Shown here: positions 15,293 to 42,507 of the stretch, one piece after another
How the letters are laid out: every line of letters begins with the position of its first letter
How positions within the stretch are numbered: the stretch's first letter is position 1
Assembly (NCBI GenBank): GCA_944358895.1
Contig: CALVSB010000011.1
Span: 1 to 47,803 of the forward strand
From: an uncultured Bacilli bacterium
GTDB lineage: Bacteria > Bacillota_I > Bacilli_A > RFN20 > CAG-826
DNA: 47,803 bases
Direction of reading: 5' to 3'
Made by a program: the position numbers and the translations under genes
The notes under the pieces: generated by a model
Seen by the model: only the letters and a program-made list of their open reading frames with translations
Told to the model about the DNA's origin: nothing
Database searches by the model: none

Positions 15293-16168
15293 ATGTGGAA
15301 ACTATTCGTTGACCTTGACGAAGACTTCAAGCCGTCCGAAGCGAAGGAACACAATCTCGGATTTATCTCGATGCCGGTCATCATCGACGGCGTCCCGACA
15401 CTTCCCTATATCGAAGGAGAGCTCAAGGACTATGAGCCCCACGCTTTCTTCGAGCGCCTTCGGGGCGGCCTCGTCCCCAAGACGAGCGGCCTCTCGCCCG
15501 AGCAATACCGGAAGCACTTCGAGCCCTATGCCAAGGAAGGCACGGCCGTCCTGTACGCCCACTTCTCCGAGGCGATGAGCGGCACCTTCAACGCCATGCG
15601 GATCGCGGTCGACGACCTCAAGAAAGAGTTCCCGACCTGGCGGTTCGAGGAAGTCGACACCCTGGCCATCACCGGCCTTTCGAAAGCCATCATCGAGGAA
15701 GCCCTTCCCCTCTATGAGAAGGGAGCAAGCCTCGACGAAGTGAAGAAAGCCATCGAGGATGCGAGGCAGCACTTTGCCATCACCCTCTTTGCCGACGATC
15801 TCAAGTTCTTCAAGGCCTCGGGCCGCGTGAGCGGCATCTCGGCCTTCCTCGGCGGCGCCCTCGGCATCAAGCCGATCATCAGCATCGACAAGGACGGCTA
15901 CATGAAGCCGGTCGGCAAAGTCGCCGGCAAGAAGAAGGCCTTCATGACCATCATCGAGGACATTGAGAAGAAGGGCGACGACATCGCCAACCACCCCTTC
16001 CTCATCGTCCATAGCGACATCTCGAAGGAACTCCTCGAATACCTCCGCGGGCTCATCAAAAAACACTTCGGCGAGCTCAACATCGAGGAAATCATCGTCT
16101 CGCCGGTCGGTGGGAGCCACGCCGGCCCCGACTGCCTCGGCATCGCCTTCCACGCCAAGCACCGCTAA
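15293..16168 (+). CDS. DegV family fatty-acid-binding protein
   Basis: This 291-residue protein has the DegV fold signature: VPKTSGLSPEQY (61-72, the TSG loop), HFSEAMSGTFN (90-100) and FFKASGRVSGISAFLGGALGIKPI near residues 176-200. DegV/FakB proteins bind a fatty acid. Some present it to the FakA kinase for phospholipid synthesis, but no fakA is nearby, so that role is not shown. The length is normal for the family. The next gene begins one nucleotide after its stop, so the two are co-transcribed. The codon use and GC content are typical of the host genes and contrast with the island to the left. Confidence 0.93.
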   Translation: MWKLFVDLDEDFKPSEAKEHNLGFISMPVIIDGVPTLPYIEGELKDYEPHAFFERLRGGLVPKTSGLSPEQYRKHFEPYAKEGTAVLYAHFSEAMSGTFNAMRIAVDDLKKEFPTWRFEEVDTLAITGLSKAIIEEALPLYEKGASLDEVKKAIEDARQHFAITLFADDLKFFKASGRVSGISAFLGGALGIKPIISIDKDGYMKPVGKVAGKKKAFMTIIEDIEKKGDDIANHPFLIVHSDISKELLEYLRGLIKKHFGELNIEEIIVSPVGGSHAGPDCLGIAFHAKHR

Positions 16169-16169
16169 T

Positions 16170-17288
16170 ATGTACCGCTTAGTCGAAGTAAAGACAAAAA
16201 GGGAGCAAAGGGACTTTCTCGACTTCCCCCTCAAACTCTACAAGGGCAACCCCTACTTTGTCCCCTGCCTCTATGGCGACGAGAAGAAGATCCTCCGCGG
16301 GGACTGGCATCTCAAATACGCGAAGCAGGCTTTCTACCTCGTTTACGATGGCAAGAAAGTCGTTGGCCGGATCCAGGCCATTCTCTCGCGGCTTTCGAAT
16401 GAAAAGCAGAACCAGAAGCGGGTGCGCTTCACCCGTTTCGACGCGATCGACGACCCGGAGGTAGCCAAACTCCTCTTCGGGGCGGTCGAGCAATTCGCGA
16501 AGGACAACGGGATGGATAGCGTCTGCGGCCCCCTCGGCTACAGCGACATGGACCGGGAAGGCCTCCTCATCGAAGGTTTCAACGAGCTATCGACCTTCGA
16601 AGAACAGTACAACTACCCCTACTACCAAAAGCTCATCGAGGGCCTCGGCTATGAAAAAGAGGTCGACTGGGTCGAGCGGAAGCTCTATGCCCCGAAGGAA
16701 CTCGATACCCGGATCGGAAGGATCGCCGATGCCATGATGAAGCGGAACAACCTCCGCTTTGCCGTCTGCAAGTCGACGAAGGAGATGGTGAAGCGCTACG
16801 GCGACGCCTTCTTCGACCTCATCGACGAGACCTACAAGGACCTCTACATGACGATCGACTTCCCGGAAGAGGAACGGAAGGAGTACATCGCCGCCTTCAA
16901 GCTCCTCATCTCCCCGAAATTCGTCCGGATCATCGTCGACAAAGACGACAAGGTCGTGGCCATCGGCCTCTGCTTCCCCTCAATCGGGAAAGCCCTCCAG
17001 AAGTCCGGGGGCAAGCTTACCCTCCCTTGCCTCATCAAGGTCATGAAAGCTGTGAAGAAGCCGGAGATCATCGACCTCGGGCTCATCGGCATTCTCCCCA
17101 AGTACCAGAATTCCGGCGTCAGCTGGGCCATCTTCTACGAGATCATGAAGATGCTCTACGAAGGCGGAGTCGCCTATTGCGAGACCAACCTCAACCTCGA
17201 GGACAACAAGGGGATCCAAAACAACTGGGGGCGCTTCGAAAACGTCCTCCACAAGCGGCGGAGATCCTACCTCAAGAAAATCGCCTAA
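16170..17288 (+). CDS. GNAT-superfamily acetyltransferase-like protein
   Basis: This 372-residue cytoplasmic protein looks like a two-part GNAT protein. The N-terminal half has YLVYDGKKVVGRIQAIL near residue 54, a typical GNAT beta-strand pair. The C-terminal half has IDLGLIGILPKYQNSGVSWAIF, which corresponds to the acetyl-CoA loop region (normally Q/RxxGxG/A; here QNSGVS). Proteins of this length and organisation are usually annotated simply as N-acetyltransferases, with no known substrate. The start ATG 16170 sits one nucleotide after the degV stop, with no separate ribosome binding site, so translation probably depends on degV. A terminator follows directly. Confidence 0.65.
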   Translation: MYRLVEVKTKREQRDFLDFPLKLYKGNPYFVPCLYGDEKKILRGDWHLKYAKQAFYLVYDGKKVVGRIQAILSRLSNEKQNQKRVRFTRFDAIDDPEVAKLLFGAVEQFAKDNGMDSVCGPLGYSDMDREGLLIEGFNELSTFEEQYNYPYYQKLIEGLGYEKEVDWVERKLYAPKELDTRIGRIADAMMKRNNLRFAVCKSTKEMVKRYGDAFFDLIDETYKDLYMTIDFPEEERKEYIAAFKLLISPKFVRIIVDKDDKVVAIGLCFPSIGKALQKSGGKLTLPCLIKVMKAVKKPEIIDLGLIGILPKYQNSGVSWAIFYEIMKMLYEGGVAYCETNLNLEDNKGIQNNWGRFENVLHKRRRSYLKKIA

Positions 17289-23940: not shown

Positions 23941-23970
23941 ATAAAGAAAGGCCAGCCACACGGCCGGCCT
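23941..23970 (-). terminator. Terminator of the repeat lipoprotein gene
   Basis: Reading the minus strand, AGGCCGGCC (23970-23962) and GGCTGGCCT (23957-23949) form a stem with one mismatch and a 4-nt loop, followed by TTCTTTAT. Confidence 0.8.
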
Positions 23971-23986
23971 CGTGATGCGGCTTTGC

Positions 23987-26900
23987 TCAGCTGACTTTCG
24001 TCATGAGGGCATCGATCATGTAGTTCGCGTTGTCCTTACACGTCAGGTAGATGCTATAGCTGCTTTCGCCCCAAGTGCTGTGGTAGAGCTCGATGTCGTA
24101 TTCGATGCCGTCGAAGGAATATTTCCCGAGGAAGCCACCATATGTGTTGGCGGCGAATTCCTCCACCGCCGTTCCGGCGACGCCATTGAGGGAAAGCCCG
24201 TCTTCGGCGACAACCATCGTATACGTCTTCCCGGCATAGGTCATTTCATAGGTGCCGTACCAAGCGGCATAGGGAACCTCGTCCCCGGTCGAGGGGTCTT
24301 CCGGCTCCTCTTCCTCGGTCACGACCTTCTCGAGGGTCAGCCAGTAGATATACGGTTTCGAGCAGTTGATCGCGACGTAGGGCTCTCCGTCGAAGTCGGT
24401 GGAGAACTCGATCTCGTAGGTCGTCCCGCCGAAATCGGCCTTCCCGGTCCAGCCGTAGCTGACTTCCGTAAGCTCGGTAAGCGTCCCGACGGTGCCGTTC
24501 AGCTCCATCGTGCCACCGGAAATGACCATCGTGTAGGTGACTCCGCCGGTTACGCCCTCGAAGGTCCCCTCGTAGCCGTCGGGGATCGCGAGTTCCGGCT
24601 CTTCCGGATCGGGGTCGGGTTCTTCGACCTCGACCTTCTTAAGGATCGGATAGTCATAGGACGAAGAGGTCTCGAGGTTGTCGAGGATGACGCTCGGGGT
24701 GAAGCCAGGGGTGGCCGAATAGGCGACCGAGTGCTCGACGCCGTCGAAGTAAATCGTCGCGACGAGGTCACCGTTGCTGTCCTCCTCGAAGGCCGTGAGG
24801 CCGGTCCCGACGACCCCGTTGAGGGCGATCGAATCGGCCGTCACGACGAGCTCGTAGACGGTTCCGGTGTACCCGTCTTCCCCCGTCCAGGTGCCGATCA
24901 TCTCCTCGGGAATGACGACCTCGGGGTCGGGTTCTTCGACCTCGACCTTCTTGAGATACGGATAGTCGTAGAGCGAAGAGGTCTCGAGGTTGTCGAGGAT
25001 GACGCTCGGGGTAAAGCCCGAGCCAGCCGAGTAGGCGATGGAATGTTCGACGCCGTCGAAGTAGATGTGGGCGACGAGATCGCCGTAGCTATCTTCCTCG
25101 AAAGCCGTGAGGCCCGTGCCAACGACGCCGTTAAGGGTGATGGTATCCGCCGTGACGATGAGTTCGTAGGATTTGCCAAACTCCTCACCGGACCAAGTGC
25201 CGATCATGCCTTCGGGGATCTCGACGGCCGGTTCCGGCTCTGGCTCTTCGGTCTCCTGCTTCGTCATGTTGACCGTAATGGCATCGGTCCCGGTGCTATA
25301 AAGCTGGAGCTGCTCACCGTTTTTCCAAATTGTGTATTTCTTGCCGTTGAGAAGGAGGTCGTACCAACCATAATCCTCGGCCGTGACCGTCGCTTCGACA
25401 CCGTTGATGGTGATGGTTCCTTCTTCGGTGATGACGACCGTGTAGGTAGCCCCGTCCTCGGTATTCGTGTCGACGCCGACCCAGGTACCGGCCCATTCGG
25501 CCGGAAGGGCAATGCTCGGGGTCTCAACCGCTGCCTTTTCGAGATAGCCGAGTGTCGTTCCCGCCATCTTGATGGCAATCTTACTGACACCATCTTCTTC
25601 AACGAGAGCCGCGACGATAGCCATGCCGCTATAGTCGATGTGGAGTTCATCGGCCGCCGCGTCATAGGTCCAGCCGGTGAGGGCTTCCCCACCCATCGTG
25701 ATCGTCATGTCGTCGGCTACGGTGAGGGCAATGCTCACGCCCTTGATCGTGCCCGACCATTCGCCGAGCCAGCCCGCCGGGAGGGTGACCGGGGCTTCCC
25801 CGTCCTTCCGAAGGACGAGTTCGGATCCCATGACGGCGACGTGGATTTCATAGATGCCTTGGTTCCACTCGAGGGTCGCGGTAGCCGGCAGGCTCATGAA
25901 GGTGATTGAGAGGGTGCCGGTTTCTTCGTCATAGGTCGCACCTTCGGCCACCGATCCGAGGATCGTGATCGTTCCGTCTTCGGCGATGGTCAGAGTGATG
26001 TCCGTCTGCATGAACGTTCCGGTCCAGGTGCCGGTCCAGCCGGCCGGGAGTTCAAGAGCCGGGGCTTCGGCGCCTTCCTTGTGGAGAATCCAGCCGTCGA
26101 GGTTCGAGAGTGTCTTAACCTCCATGACCGTTTCGCCATTTTGCTCGATGAGCTCCATCTGGTAAGAAACGGATTCAGAATATTTGCCGATGCGAGCGCT
26201 ATAGAATTGCCCGCTCTTCTGAACGTTGCTGGCGTATTCGCCGTTGACCATCCAATAGCCATCAGCCGTAATCTCAATCGTGAGGGTCTCGGCCTCGTCC
26301 TTCCAGACGCCGATCCAGACTGCTTCCGGAACGAGGACGGCCGGCTCGTCGGGCTCCTCGATTTCCTCGCGGACCAAGACGGCCGAAACGCTATGGTCGG
26401 CCTTCTCGAGGAGGATGCCGCTCGAGGAAAGGGTCAATTCGTAGAGTTCCTCCCCGAAGAGGATGCTGGCCCCGGCCCCACTCTCGGAAACGAACTGGAC
26501 GTAGCCCCTGGTTCCGTTGAGGGTCGGGACTCCCTCCCCGTCGACGACAAGGGTATAGGCGAGCGAGGTTTCGAGGTCGGTCCCTTTCCAAGTCCCGACG
26601 AAGGTGGTCGGAAGAGGCGGAAGGGGCTCTTCGACCGTCCCTTCCGGATAAAGGGTGGCGACGGTGCTTCCGCTCGTGAGGGCGATGTAACGGTCGGTCC
26701 CGTCATCGACGTAATCGACGTAATAGGCCGTGTCCCCGAAGGCGACCCGGCCCCGGATGGTGCCTTCGTACTCGGTGAAACCGGAGACGATCGTCCCGAT
26801 GGTCCCGTTCAGGTCGAGGCTATCTTCCCCGACCGTCAGCTTGAGGTAGCGATGGCCGTCGTTTCCTTCGTAGACGCCGATCATCGCGGTCGGGATCTTC

Positions 26901-27121
26901 GCCCCTTCTTCCGAAGAAGGGTCGCTAGTCGTCGAGTCGGAAGCGGGATCCGAGGAGGGGATGCTTGATTCTTCCGAGGAAGAAGAACCTTCCTCGACAG
27001 AGGAGGAAAGGGAAGAGCTCCCCGAGGTCGACGGCGAAGAGGAAGAGGAAAGCGTCTCGCCGCAGGAAGCGAGGCCGAGCAAAGCGGCCAAGGCCAAGAC
27101 GGCTAGCGGTTGTTTTTTCAT
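23987..27121 (-). CDS. Large surface lipoprotein with about ten tandem repeats
   Basis: This 1044-residue protein has a lipoprotein signal with Cys20 (GLASC) followed by a Ser/Glu-rich linker to about residue 72. The rest consists of about ten repeats of 80-105 residues. Each begins with a Pro-x-x-(W/M/F)-x-G-x-(W/Y) motif such as ELPAGWTGTWTG or EIPEGMIGTWSG. Then come strands like YTLVV, an INGV/LNGTxGT turn, and an acidic Glu-Pro linker. The unit looks like an all-beta, lipocalin-like or small barrel fold, but I do not recognise a named family. Repeats 7 and 8 are nearly identical in DNA. AAAGGGGG precedes ATG 27121. It probably projects from the cell surface; no catalytic motif is seen. 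Confidence 0.85.
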   Translation of the reverse strand: MKKQPLAVLALAALLGLASCGETLSSSSSPSTSGSSSLSSSVEEGSSSSEESSIPSSDPASDSTTSDPSSEEGAKIPTAMIGVYEGNDGHRYLKLTVGEDSLDLNGTIGTIVSGFTEYEGTIRGRVAFGDTAYYVDYVDDGTDRYIALTSGSTVATLYPEGTVEEPLPPLPTTFVGTWKGTDLETSLAYTLVVDGEGVPTLNGTRGYVQFVSESGAGASILFGEELYELTLSSSGILLEKADHSVSAVLVREEIEEPDEPAVLVPEAVWIGVWKDEAETLTIEITADGYWMVNGEYASNVQKSGQFYSARIGKYSESVSYQMELIEQNGETVMEVKTLSNLDGWILHKEGAEAPALELPAGWTGTWTGTFMQTDITLTIAEDGTITILGSVAEGATYDEETGTLSITFMSLPATATLEWNQGIYEIHVAVMGSELVLRKDGEAPVTLPAGWLGEWSGTIKGVSIALTVADDMTITMGGEALTGWTYDAAADELHIDYSGMAIVAALVEEDGVSKIAIKMAGTTLGYLEKAAVETPSIALPAEWAGTWVGVDTNTEDGATYTVVITEEGTITINGVEATVTAEDYGWYDLLLNGKKYTIWKNGEQLQLYSTGTDAITVNMTKQETEEPEPEPAVEIPEGMIGTWSGEEFGKSYELIVTADTITLNGVVGTGLTAFEEDSYGDLVAHIYFDGVEHSIAYSAGSGFTPSVILDNLETSSLYDYPYLKKVEVEEPDPEVVIPEEMIGTWTGEDGYTGTVYELVVTADSIALNGVVGTGLTAFEEDSNGDLVATIYFDGVEHSVAYSATPGFTPSVILDNLETSSSYDYPILKKVEVEEPDPDPEEPELAIPDGYEGTFEGVTGGVTYTMVISGGTMELNGTVGTLTELTEVSYGWTGKADFGGTTYEIEFSTDFDGEPYVAINCSKPYIYWLTLEKVVTEEEEPEDPSTGDEVPYAAWYGTYEMTYAGKTYTMVVAEDGLSLNGVAGTAVEEFAANTYGGFLGKYSFDGIEYDIELYHSTWGESSYSIYLTCKDNANYMIDALMTKVS
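24611..25230. repeat. Near-identical 312-bp tandem duplication in the lipoprotein gene
   Basis: The stretch starting at 24611 and that starting at 24923 (both GGGGTCGGGTTCTTCGACC) run in parallel for about 300 bp with scattered substitutions. They encode repeats 8 and 7. The period is 312 bp, or 104 codons. This is the most recent duplication in the array. Confidence 0.85.
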
Positions 27122-27204
27122 TGAGGTCCCCCTTTAGGAATATCGCTATGACTTGAAAATACCCGGGCCGGCCGCCATTTCAACAAAAAGGTGCAAATGT
27201 TGCC

Positions 27205-27238
27205 TTAAAAAGCAAAAAGGCCGCCATTTGGCGGCCTT
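27205..27238 (-). terminator. Terminator of the second large lipoprotein
   Basis: On the minus strand AAGGCCGCC (27238-27230) and GGCGGCCTT (27225-27217) form a perfect 9-bp stem with a 4-nt loop, followed by TTTGCTTTTTAA. Confidence 0.9.
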
Positions 27239-27254
27239 CCTCCTACCCGCCCAC

Positions 27255-29585
27255 TTAGGCAAGGGGATAGAAAGGATAGTACTCGGTGTTCCGAATCGCG
27301 ATGTCGATCATCGTGTCCTCGCCATGGGAAACGAAGCAGATGACGAAGGGCAATCCTTCCTTGCCGTAGCGCGTCGGAGTGCCCTGCCCGGCCTCGAAGC
27401 CGCATTCCTCGACGATGTACTCCTCGTAGCGATAAGCGTATTCGGCGGCCTCCTCGCTCCCGATGACGGAGTAGTTGTTGAGGATGACGGCCTCGGTGAT
27501 GGTCGTTCCGCCTTCGCTCCCGAAAAGCCAGTAGTCGTTGAGGATGGGATCGTAGAGATAAGGAATCTCGTCGACGGCCTCGCCGATCCAGCTGACGGCC
27601 TTCAGCTTCTCGTAGAGTTCGGGGCAGCCTTCCGCCCAGCTCGTCGGATTGGCAAAGCCTCCTTCGAGAGAAGAGAAGTCGATGTCGTCGGGGAGGCTCG
27701 CCCCATAGGCGATGTCGGCCCGCTCGCTATCGAAGCCCGGGACGTCGTAGACGTAGCCGGTGATCCTAGCGCTCGCTTCGTCGTAAACGAAGCGAAGGGA
27801 TGTTTCGTCCATGAACTCGCCGTTTGGCCCGAGGAAGAGCAAGTCCTTGTAGCCTTTGACGTAGGCCCGGGGGACGATATAGCCATCGTCGTCGAAGGCA
27901 AGGGTAGAGGCGGAAATGCCTTGATAGCCGAGGAAATCGTCGACCGAGGTGTAGCTCGGATCGCTCTCGGCGTAGAGGACGGCTTTCCCCTCCTCGACGC
28001 GGAAGGGGGCAATGCCCTCCCCGTCGAAGTAGTAGCCGTCGTAGACCTGGGTCGGCCCGTCGAGAAGCTCGGTTCCGGTCATCGAGCGGAGGACGACGTT
28101 CCCGACGACGGTGAGTTTGTTGTAGTAGGCCGGGTTCCCGGTCCGGTAGGCGGTGATCGAATAGCCGCCGTCGGCCTTCAGGGCGGCGAGGGCCGTCTTG
28201 ATCTTCTCCTCGCCCTCGTCTTTGTAGACGTCGACGTTCTCGATCGTCTCGGCCGCTCCGAAGGCAAGCTTCATGACATAGCGGTAGGTCCCGGTCCCGG
28301 TGAGGGTAACGTCGCGGGAAACGGCGGTAATCGCCACGAGGTTCCCGCTTTCGTCGACCTTGGCTTCCATGTCGATGACGAGCCCCATCCCGTCGACGGC
28401 TCCGGTCAATCCCTTGACGAGCCTATCGTATTGGAGGCCGAAGTAGCGATAGGTCGTCTCGTCGATTTTGAGGAAGGCTTTATAGTCGAGGAGGTCGAGG
28501 AGGTCGGGGACCCACTCCTCGTAGCTAACCCCTTGCCCGAGCTCGACGAGGCGGTTTTCGGGGCTGAGGAACTGCTCGACGAGAGTTCCGTCGGAACCCT
28601 CGGCATAATAAGAGGTTTCCGGACCTCCGACCGAGGAGTCGACGACCTTCGCCCGCTTGGCGGCATAGTCATAGGAGAAGGTCGCCTTGGCCGGATAGGA
28701 ATCCGGGATCCCGTCGAGGTAAAGGGTGAGGTCGGCGGAATAGGTGACCTTGTCGCCCTTGAGGTAGGAGAGGTTTTCCTCCCCGAGGGACTCGGTCGGC
28801 ATCTCATAGGAGGAAACGAAGGCGGCGACCTCTTCGTCGACGCTCGTGCCGACGTCGTAGATGACGCCCATCGTGCCTTCGATGGCCGGGGAGATGGAGC
28901 CGTCGCTATCGGTGTAATTTGGAATGAAGCCGACGTAGAGGCTATCTCCGTCGAGATTGAAGAGGACGCGCATCACGTAGTCGGTGTAGTTGCCGAGCCC
29001 GAACATGCTCGCGAAGATGAGGATGACGTTCTCATCCTCGCTCAGGTAGTTGCCGCTTTGCTCGAAAAGGGCCTCGCTTCCCCACGCGACGTCTTCGCGC
29101 TTGAGGAGGGCCAGGTAATCGAGCTCATCGGTCGAGGCATAGCCGGAAACTTCCCCCGTCAGGGTGTCGGTGTAGGTCGCCGCGACGACGACGGAATACT
29201 CGCCCTCGGCCTTGTCGATGTCGTAAAGGAGCTTGCTCCCGTCTCCTTCGTAGCTCGGGAGGGCGGCCCGGGCCATCTGCTCGGATGGGTAGGAAATGTA
29301 TTCGGGAGTCATGATGGTCGGATTGCTCACGAAGGCCGACCCGTCGGTAAAGGCGTAGGTGTAGTTGGTCCCTTCTTCCGCCCGGTCAATGAAGTCCACG
29401 ATGGCTTGCTTCTTGGCGTCGACGTCCTCGGAAACGTCCGGGAGGGACGAAGAGGAGGGATCGGAAGAGGAAAGCGAGGAGTCCGGCTCGGAGGGTAAAG
29501 AAGAGGAACTCACGACCGTCTCTTGACATCCGGCAAGGAGGATGGAAGCGGCAGCAATAAGGAGGCAGGTCTTGTTTTTCATCAT
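27255..29585 (-). CDS. Large surface lipoprotein, unknown
   Basis: This protein of about 776 residues has a lipobox LLAGC with Cys20 when started at ATG 29585, then a Ser/Pro/Glu/Asp-rich linker to about residue 55. The remaining 720 residues are acidic and Tyr-rich with no repeat or motif I can name. The rhythm of alternating hydrophobic strands (for example YSVVVAATYTDTLTGEV) suggests beta-sheet domains. Start choice is uncertain: ATG 29585, ATG 29582 or an upstream TTG 29594 are all in frame. The only good Shine-Dalgarno element lies in a hairpin at 29601-29617, closer to the TTG. It shares linker type and orientation with the repeat lipoprotein, but has its own terminator. Confidence 0.8.
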   Translation of the reverse strand: MMKNKTCLLIAAASILLAGCQETVVSSSSLPSEPDSSLSSSDPSSSSLPDVSEDVDAKKQAIVDFIDRAEEGTNYTYAFTDGSAFVSNPTIMTPEYISYPSEQMARAALPSYEGDGSKLLYDIDKAEGEYSVVVAATYTDTLTGEVSGYASTDELDYLALLKREDVAWGSEALFEQSGNYLSEDENVILIFASMFGLGNYTDYVMRVLFNLDGDSLYVGFIPNYTDSDGSISPAIEGTMGVIYDVGTSVDEEVAAFVSSYEMPTESLGEENLSYLKGDKVTYSADLTLYLDGIPDSYPAKATFSYDYAAKRAKVVDSSVGGPETSYYAEGSDGTLVEQFLSPENRLVELGQGVSYEEWVPDLLDLLDYKAFLKIDETTYRYFGLQYDRLVKGLTGAVDGMGLVIDMEAKVDESGNLVAITAVSRDVTLTGTGTYRYVMKLAFGAAETIENVDVYKDEGEEKIKTALAALKADGGYSITAYRTGNPAYYNKLTVVGNVVLRSMTGTELLDGPTQVYDGYYFDGEGIAPFRVEEGKAVLYAESDPSYTSVDDFLGYQGISASTLAFDDDGYIVPRAYVKGYKDLLFLGPNGEFMDETSLRFVYDEASARITGYVYDVPGFDSERADIAYGASLPDDIDFSSLEGGFANPTSWAEGCPELYEKLKAVSWIGEAVDEIPYLYDPILNDYWLFGSEGGTTITEAVILNNYSVIGSEEAAEYAYRYEEYIVEECGFEAGQGTPTRYGKEGLPFVICFVSHGEDTMIDIAIRNTEYYPFYPLA

Positions 29586-29600
29586 TATTGGCAATTAGCT

Positions 29601-39948: not shown

Positions 39949-42507
39949 ATGATGAATCGTAAGATCATCCTATTACCGCTAGTCTTGAGCGCCCTTGTTC
40001 TTGCTGGGTGCGGCGAGACCGGCACGTCCTCCACGTCGTCGAGCGAAGAGACTCCGACCAGCTCCGAGACTACCTCTTCGAGCGAAGAGACCCCGACCAG
40101 CTCCGAGACTACCTCTTCGAGCGAAGAAGTCCCTTCCAGCTCTTCCACAACTGAATCCGAAACCTCCAATCCCGAGGAAGAGACTTGGAGCACCATCGCC
40201 GATCTCAAGACCATGGACATCGGCGCCTCCTTCACGGCCCGCGCCTACTGGATGGGCACTTGCGGGATGATCAACAAAGAGTTCGGCACTTACAACACGT
40301 CGTACGTCGCTGACGGAGACGAAGGCTACATCATCTACCGGGGCGAGGCTTCCAAAATCGACGCTCTCGAGCTCGAAGTTGGAAAGACGGTCGTCGAGTT
40401 CACCGGAACCATCGCCAACTACGTCGACGAAAAGAGCGGAAGCACCACCTACGAATGCAGCCTCAATACCATCGCCGTCGTCGATGATGCCACCGGCCTT
40501 GAAGCCCCGGTCATGCTGACCCTCAATGCGGCCAACCCGACTTTCACTTTCGATGCCACCACGGCTTCTCGCCGCATTGCCATCAGCGACGCCAAAGTCG
40601 TAAGCAACGAAAGCGGCAATTACGGCAATGTCACCGTGACCTTCACCGTCGGAACCGATACGACCAAATACACGATCTTCTTTGATTCCCGGTACACTGA
40701 CACCTCGCTCGTCGCTGACCTCAAGGCCGGCGATACCTTCAACTGCGAATCGTTCGTTGGCCGCAGCCGCTTTGAATCGATCGACAAGCTCGTCATCACC
40801 TCGGAAGGCGGCTCGACCGAGGAACCGGGCGGCGAAACGATCACTCCGCTCGCCGACGTCATCGATCTCGCGGACGGCACCACCTTCACGACCCGAGCCT
40901 ATTACGTCGGGCGCAACAGCAAGGCGGCCGAGAAGGGGATCATGACCTACAACGCGGTGTATGTCGCCGACGGCGCCACCGCTTACATGATCTACAACCA
41001 CAGCCAGGAAGAAATCGATGCGCTCAACCTCGTGCCGGGCGAATCGATCGTCGAATTCAGCGGCAAAGTCGCCAACTACGGCGGCCTTTATGAATGCCGT
41101 GCCGACTCCATCAAGGTCATCACCGACGCCACCGGCCTTGAAGCCCCGGTCTATCAGACCCTCGACAAGGACCATGCCGATATCGACCTTGAGAGCGTTC
41201 TCGTCAGCACGAAGTTCAACGTGAGCGATGCTACCGTCAAGAACATCACCACCTCCGGCAATGACACGACCATCACCTTCACCGTCGGCGAAGGGACCAA
41301 GGAATACACTCTCCTTCTCGATCAACGCTACAACGACATGACCCCGGTCGAGGATCTCGCGGTCGGCGATGCCTTCGAAACCGAAACCTTCCTCAACGTT
41401 GAGGATGGCGAGAAGGTCTTCACCTACATCGCTAACTTCGTCGACAAAACGGAAGGCGGTTCGACCGAAGAACCCGATCCCGAACCCGAACCGCTCCCGA
41501 CCCCGGTCGACACGACCATCGCGGAAGCTCTTACGGGCGAACTCAGCAAGACGACCCTCTACCGGGTTACCGGCGTCATCGAACAGATGAAGGGGGACCA
41601 GTACGGCAACGCCATGCTCGTCGACCCGGAGACCGGCGACTACATCACGGTCTACGGCAACACTACTTCAATGAGCGCCTTCACGGTTACCAACGGCGAA
41701 GTTTCCTACACCAACCCGAAGGATGCCGAGACGACCCTTGCCGACATTCACGACGGAGACAAGATCACCGTCCTTTGCGTCTACGACTACTTCCAGTGGA
41801 CTGACACGCACGAACTCCTCTGCGTCACGACCGAGCACGCCGCCTATGACGGCACCGTCGCGGTCACGATGCCGACCGAAATTGCGAACGCCACGGCCAC
41901 GGCCAGCAAGACCGAAGCCGCTTGGGGCGAAGACATCACCATCACCGTTACCCCGGGCGAGAACTATGCCGTTACTTCCGTCAAAGTCGACCACGGATAT
42001 ACCACCGAAACTCTGACCGCAGCTCCCTACACCTTCAAGGCCCGTTGCATCAACAATGTCACCGTTGAACTCAGGGACGCCAGCGTGGTTAGCGAGTCTT
42101 TGACCATCACCCCTGAGGACGTTCCGGCCACCTATAATGACGAGCAAACGTTCACTGTCGATGGAATTGTCTTCAAGTCCAATAACCTCGGCGGCACCTA
42201 TGGAACCGGCATCCAAACCAAAGTCGGCGCCTTCATCTACAACGAAACCGCTCTTCCGAAGGCCATCGACAATATCGTCTTCACCTTCTCGGAAAAACAA
42301 ACCTCTACCGCTTCTGCTGATTCGGTCAATTTCGGAACCAGTGTGATGACCAAAGTCGGCGAGGAAAACAATCTCGTCATGTTCGATGGCGAAACCGCCA
42401 CGATCACCCTTGATTGCGACGTCGAAGGCGCGACCTTCTTCCGGATCGACCACACCCTCAAAGGCATGATCTGTTTCGAAAGCATCGTCATCAACTACGC
42501 TGCTTAG
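39949..42507 (+). CDS. Large surface lipoprotein with repeated OB-like domains
   Basis: This 852-residue protein has a lipobox VLAGC with Cys21, then a Ser/Thr/Glu linker containing 13-residue repeats to about residue 78. Two homologous units follow, near residues 80-290 and 300-505. Each has a strand pattern such as TTRAYYVG, a YVADG loop, FSGKVANY and ATGLEAPV, and each ends in a Gly-Ser-Thr-Glu linker (EGGSTEEP). A third, different domain (about 525-640) looks OB-fold-like (VTGVIEQMKG, MLVDPETGDYITVYG). A small Ig-like domain and a C-terminal beta domain close the protein. No catalytic site is evident; it may bind polysaccharide or nucleic acid outside the cell. GGAG lies just before ATG 39949. 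Confidence 0.8.
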   Translation: MMNRKIILLPLVLSALVLAGCGETGTSSTSSSEETPTSSETTSSSEETPTSSETTSSSEEVPSSSSTTESETSNPEEETWSTIADLKTMDIGASFTARAYWMGTCGMINKEFGTYNTSYVADGDEGYIIYRGEASKIDALELEVGKTVVEFTGTIANYVDEKSGSTTYECSLNTIAVVDDATGLEAPVMLTLNAANPTFTFDATTASRRIAISDAKVVSNESGNYGNVTVTFTVGTDTTKYTIFFDSRYTDTSLVADLKAGDTFNCESFVGRSRFESIDKLVITSEGGSTEEPGGETITPLADVIDLADGTTFTTRAYYVGRNSKAAEKGIMTYNAVYVADGATAYMIYNHSQEEIDALNLVPGESIVEFSGKVANYGGLYECRADSIKVITDATGLEAPVYQTLDKDHADIDLESVLVSTKFNVSDATVKNITTSGNDTTITFTVGEGTKEYTLLLDQRYNDMTPVEDLAVGDAFETETFLNVEDGEKVFTYIANFVDKTEGGSTEEPDPEPEPLPTPVDTTIAEALTGELSKTTLYRVTGVIEQMKGDQYGNAMLVDPETGDYITVYGNTTSMSAFTVTNGEVSYTNPKDAETTLADIHDGDKITVLCVYDYFQWTDTHELLCVTTEHAAYDGTVAVTMPTEIANATATASKTEAAWGEDITITVTPGENYAVTSVKVDHGYTTETLTAAPYTFKARCINNVTVELRDASVVSESLTITPEDVPATYNDEQTFTVDGIVFKSNNLGGTYGTGIQTKVGAFIYNETALPKAIDNIVFTFSEKQTSTASADSVNFGTSVMTKVGEENNLVMFDGETATITLDCDVEGATFFRIDHTLKGMICFESIVINYAA
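40039..40155 (+). repeat. 39-bp minisatellite in the lipoprotein linker
   Basis: Units begin at 40039, 40078 and 40117, each 39 bp. The first two differ at one or two positions and the third is more diverged. Each encodes 13 residues, SSEETPTSSETTS or similar. The period keeps the reading frame, so copy number can change without breaking the gene. Confidence 0.9.

Follow-up and report, generated by a model that had tools for sequence, protein, structure and literature searches.

Organization of the Locus

The window, that is, the whole stretch of 47,803 nucleotides analyzed here, comes from an uncultured gut bacterium of the Bacilli and carries on its minus strand a gene (23987..27121; ATG at 27121, stop at 23987) for a 1044-residue lipoprotein with ten units that appear calycin-like. 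A good ribosome-binding site, AAAGGGGGACC, lies shortly 5' of the ATG, a weak promoter-like site (27156..27183, minus strand; 9 of 12 matches, a consensus match only) is found 5' of the gene, and a terminator-like hairpin (23948..23971, minus strand) stands 3' of it. The protein opens with a signal peptide and lipobox (LASC, aa 1-20; 27062..27121, minus strand), read from the ORF as MKKQPLAVLALAALLGLASC, in which C20 is the lipobox cysteine, followed by a Ser-rich and presumably disordered spacer (aa 20-75; 26897..27064, minus strand). The mature protein is acidic (pI 4.05) and has no C-terminal effector domain. Together with the homology of the ten units, these features bear out the initial annotation, which had read the gene as a lipoprotein of ten repeats, in ORF, coordinates, and strand. 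Two ORFs on the plus strand, 645 and 295 aa long, overlap the array gene and are best taken as shadow frames, because the lipobox and the homologues sit on the minus strand. Shadow ORFs of this kind (645 and 781 aa) lie opposite both lipoprotein genes of the locus (window 23972-29498, plus strand).

The other lipoprotein gene (27255..29594, minus strand) encodes a 779-aa protein with no family match and stands directly upstream of the array gene in the same orientation, an arrangement found in five genomes from two families. A strong terminator-like hairpin (27214..27241, minus strand) lies between the two genes, which makes their co-transcription in the window doubtful. Relatives of the 779-aa protein occur in 15 of the 279 genomes of the order, and the protein is also found without the array elsewhere. 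Compared with PDB sequences, it gave weak matches and no coherent fold (best E 0.014). Its hhalign comparison with the N-terminal domain of the four-unit paralogues described below reached 99% with the signal and Ser-rich parts included, and 67% with a score of 47 (controls 13-19) with these parts removed, so that the resemblance between the two sequences is suggestive only. The 779-aa lipoprotein may be a partner of the array protein.

A functional tie to a tail-to-tail amylase/ABC sugar operon was considered and dropped, as the operon was not found next to the lipoprotein gene pair in two genomes of another family of the same order (G270 and G271). Homologues of the window DegV gene and its neighbor (15293-17288) adjoin the lipoprotein pair in G271 (locus L127, 4211-6192), suggesting an old shared neighborhood. 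Elsewhere in the window, an 852-aa lipoprotein-like ORF (39949-42507, plus strand) without a Pfam match has two similar internal regions and, within a Ser/Thr/Glu-rich spacer, a 39-bp tandem repeat (40039-40142).

Ten Homologous Units

The units are about 90 aa long and run along the minus strand from unit 1 (aa 76-162; 26636..26896) through unit 2 (aa 170-254; 26360..26614), unit 3 (aa 263-349; 26075..26335), which is the most diverged, unit 4 (aa 358-441; 25799..26050) and its sister unit 5 (aa 447-532; 25526..25783), unit 6 (aa 539-623; 25253..25507), unit 7 (aa 635-727; 24941..25219), unit 8 (aa 737-831; 24629..24913), and unit 9 (aa 846-934; 24320..24586) to unit 10 (aa 949-1044; 23990..24277). 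Leave-one-out profiles, each unit being set against the other nine, identify all ten as homologous, with scores of 18 to 95 bits (E 1e-5 to 1e-29, 100 targets) and unit 3 scoring lowest. Most pairs share only 15-37% protein identity, in line with the sequence variation initially remarked on, whereas units 4 and 5 reach 35-38% and units 7 and 8 reach 81-83%; the low identity of most pairs is why Tandem Repeats Finder did not report the array. Two motifs had been put forward as common to the repeats. The opening P-x-x-[WM]-x-G-x-[WY] is exact in six of the ten units and survives in all of them only in the looser form G-x-W/Y/F, and the LNGxxGT turn is exact in five units.

A Probable Small Calycin-like Barrel as the Repeat Unit

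The array protein had no usable match in Pfam, NCBIfam, or PHROGs, and it reached no lipocalin family model at cutoff; of the 19 units scanned, one hit Lipocalin_4 at E 0.013, and NF040528, the NCBIfam model of the SP_0198 family, scored 8 bits against a cutoff of 100. DUF4828 (PF16110) exceeded its gathering cutoff (23.3 bits) for one unit of a paralogue on contig C3 of this genome, with 26.3 bits in a protein scan, and fell below it in six-frame genome scans of the same paralogue (21.8 bits); no window unit matched, a six-frame search of eleven relatives found nothing, and we found no mention of DUF4828 in the literature searched. The earlier view that the domain cannot be named therefore holds for curated families, but a name is available at the level of the fold.

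Structure prediction and a structural search had been proposed with the initial annotation, and these gave a confident barrel for which the VIA-align list consists mostly of calycins or calycin-like barrels. The AlphaFold2 model of unit 8, made from an alignment of this unit with 27 others (28 units), has a pLDDT of 92 and a pTM of 0.82 and is a small β-barrel in which a short N-terminal helix is followed by antiparallel strands, seven of them of three or more residues, plus short bridges, where an eight-stranded antiparallel +1 meander would be expected of a calycin. VIA-align placed it nearest to Cap15 (Z 9.3 over 86 residues, 12% identity), SP_0198 (Z 8.6, 21% identity over 76 residues), 5cyb (8.5), TP0435 (8.3), and Tp0751 (7.9), where Z values of 8-9 are near background for models without clear matches; avidins and FABPs followed near Z 7, and some designed barrels, with a few of other kinds, were also listed. 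Foldseek returned nothing below E 0.001 for the unit model (best 0.1), nor did a BFVD search. A sequence profile of the ten units, built before any structure, ranked 3ge2 (SP_0198) at the top of the PDB at E 0.4 and also listed 5cyb, neither match being significant.

The sequences carry the calycin signature known from Tp0751 (PMC5040251, PMC7521688), in which strand A has a GxW and the last strand a basic residue. On strand A (SCR1), G-x-W/Y/F is present in 10/10 window units, as G-x-W in seven and G-x-Y/F in three, and in the family alignment G7 (26/28) and W9 (25/28) fall on the first strand after the short helix. On the last strand (SCR3), hydrophobic-x-K/R is found in every window unit except unit 1, which is striking because Lys and Arg make up only 4% of the residues of these units; the last-strand signature was matched by 0 of 20,000 shuffles, and position 92 of the family alignment is K/R in 16 of 25 aligned rows. 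Because the Z values are near background, it is the concordance of three lines that carries the assignment, namely the structural list, the profile search with SP_0198 in first place, and the signature, and on these grounds the predicted repeat unit is best called a small calycin/lipocalin-like barrel. In a model of two units, each barrel is mostly above 90, and the linker is at about 65 (pTM 0.53), which suggests flexible linkers and an arrangement like beads on a string. We are accordingly confident, short of certainty, in the fold and architecture taken together, namely a lipid-anchored string of ten calycin-like barrels.

The Array Is Old, and Copies Have Been Gained and Lost

Units 7 and 8 had been described as almost identical over 312 bp and the array, on that basis, as still growing. 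The period is real, as the orthologue in the sister species G035 has nine units and lacks exactly 312 bp at the position of units 7 and 8, but the near identity is not; the DNA of the two units is 84.5% identical over a 251-column match, and 263 of 339 aligned bases agree when the linker is included. In G035 and in a second species of the same genus, G030, the array orthologue lies at the same locus with shared flanking genes, and the G030 orthologue, which is split across contigs, likewise has a single unit at this position. Compared with G035, the whole array gene evolves under purifying selection (dN/dS 0.27). Units 7 and 8 are separated by a dS of 0.93, whereas the value is 0.03-0.38 in most orthologous units (about 0.2 between species), with the unit 3 orthologues as an outlier at 1.19, and 0.05-0.14 in the flanking genes. 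The pair is older than the species on this measure, and its duplication predates the divergence of the three most closely related species.

The single units of the sister species carry traces of this older pair. At the sites that separate unit 7 from unit 8, the G035 unit is unit 8-like after a junction in the linker, and the G030 unit is unit 7-like in its first half and unit 8-like in its second. Since the junctions differ, the simplest account of the sequences is that the pair contracted separately in the two species, by unequal recombination, although gene conversion could have contributed to the junction pattern. A current expansion with units 7 and 8 as a fresh copy would fit their being the closest pair within the array, the 312-bp period, and the differences in copy number between species, but it is contradicted by a dS far above that of most orthologous units and flanking genes and by the two different collapses of the pair in the sister species, and we regard it as very improbable. 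Copy number is not fixed, with 3, 8, 9, and 10 units in different species, in a comparison that is between species with one genome for each. The array is old, copies have been gained and lost between species, and unit identity has been held by position; contrary to a common inference, the presence of one especially similar pair of repeats does not imply a growing array.

Relatives and Distribution of the Module

The array gene is rare; of the 224 genomes of the family, only G035 and G030 yielded close orthologues. The relative in G270 and G271 has eight units, and its order in G270 is collinear with that of the window (1-1, 2-2, 3-3, 6-4, 8-6), an agreement equaled in 14 of 5000 permutations; for G271 the figure is 50 of 5000. 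In a tree of units, units 1, 3, and 7/8 group with their G270/G271 counterparts. Units retain their identity according to their place in the array even in different families, and so are not interchangeable. Two further genomes, G017 and G032, encode a three-unit protein whose first units are like units 1 and 2, and its unit-order test against the window was not significant. In the array gene of G271 the reading frame changes ahead of the last unit (locus L121, 3960-4080), and that of G032 has an in-frame stop within a unit (locus L056, 3690-3770); either may reflect decay, phase change, or assembly error.

The barrel module as such gave hits in 33 of the 279 genomes of the order and in 13 of 395 sampled genomes of the class, and a same-family relative is found in Candidatus Alloenteromonas pullistercoris (locus L074). 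Beyond the window gene, the module forms C-terminal arrays of four or five units on a different lipoprotein and occurs singly at the C-terminus of other proteins. A scan of genome contigs with the paralogue family gave six loci; the second lipoprotein of this genome, on contig C3 (57033-58118, locus L053), joins an unnamed N-terminal domain of about 450 aa to four C-terminal barrel units and has relatives in several congeneric species. A tblastn search of plasmids gave no match. We give roughly even weight to the wider proposal that these proteins represent an undescribed branch of the calycins, used as a tandem-array module of 1 to 10 barrels on lipoproteins in several families of Bacilli, and including an ancient, position-specific string of ten barrels beside a partner lipoprotein.

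How the String Might Work

In the family numbering, the hydrophobic strand positions W9, L22, V24, L31, Y61, L63, Y65, and L77 are conserved and the alternating positions vary, where facing inward or outward is read from the alternation along strands and not from coordinates. As the inward-reading positions are the conserved ones, binding at the outer face or rim would be favored over a set of diversified pockets. The N-terminal lipid would anchor the protein, the Ser-rich disordered spacer would come next, and ten independent acidic barrels with short Pro/Glu linkers would extend outside the membrane as beads on a string, binding a partner multivalently on the outside of the barrels, by way of variable faces, rims, and loops, and not in an inner pocket that has diversified. 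Candidate partners would be a host or dietary macromolecule or another surface protein, such as the adjoining 779-aa lipoprotein, and small molecules held at the barrel rims are candidate ligands. The window protein may be an adhesin or a ligand binder, as first proposed. The conserved core fits any folded barrel and is also compatible with small-ligand binding or a spacer role, and we put forward multivalent binding as a function only tentatively, as something rather less than an even prospect. As a whole, the reading that we slightly favor is that of lipocalin-like barrels on a lipid-anchored string, with multivalent binding of some partner.

Two other roles can be weighed against multivalent binding. 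The barrels might each capture a small ligand at low affinity, such as fatty acids, heme, or bile compounds, the array raising capacity near the membrane; FABPs and avidins are among the fold neighbors, the lipocalin domain of Tp0751 binds heme with a Kd of 11.7 μM (PMC7521688), and SP_0198/PccL is listed as involved in small hydrophobic molecule transport (PMC8997422). However, barrels of about 90 aa with strands of 6-8 are very small, the conserved aromatic core is probably packed, and the sugar ABC transporter genes that lie nearby in the window did not turn up next to the gene pair in G270/G271; we consider this role unlikely, if still the stronger of the two. Alternatively, the array could be a structural spacer or stalk that extends the lipid-anchored surface or links envelope layers, with the sequence outside the core drifting for want of a specific partner. 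Flexible linkers, the acidic surface, the tolerance of 3 to 10 copies, and the lack of a C-terminal effector domain would all suit a stalk, but the retention of unit identity by position in different families, as seen in the G270 collinearity and the unit tree, argues against it, and we judge it improbable.

Comparison with Known Systems

The top structural match, the cyclic-dinucleotide receptor barrel Cap15, shares little sequence with the window units and belongs to a different setting, as Cap15 is a phage-defense effector and the window protein a secreted lipoprotein; none of the flanking proteins scanned in the window matched a nucleotidyltransferase family. DUF4828 resembles the module in the one unit of the C3 paralogue that exceeded the cutoff in one search, unlike the units of the window.

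Nearer in kind is SP_0198/PccL of Streptococcus pneumoniae (3ge2, 5cyb), which is also a lipoprotein and whose barrel is comparable in size (the crystal chain has 89 residues), but it has one barrel where the window protein has ten. Tp0751 and TP0435 (Tpp17) of Treponema pallidum are likewise lipoproteins of lipocalin fold, and Tp0751 in particular combines a disordered N-terminal region with an outlier-lipocalin barrel that has the GxW of strand A and a basic last strand; both differ from the window protein in being single barrels with no detectable sequence relation to it. The function of Tp0751 is disputed between adhesin and heme binder; its lipocalin domain has been reported to mediate adhesion (PMC7113585), whereas others describe a heme binder that is expressed poorly and doubt that it is exposed at the surface (PMC7521688). 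The bacterial lipocalin-like lipoproteins identified in this analysis as the nearest known relatives are single barrels, whereas in these uncultured Bacilli what appears to be the same kind of barrel is repeated, in 1 to 10 units, on several lipoproteins, and a formerly anonymous repeat gains a fold-level name that suggests concrete tests of binding.
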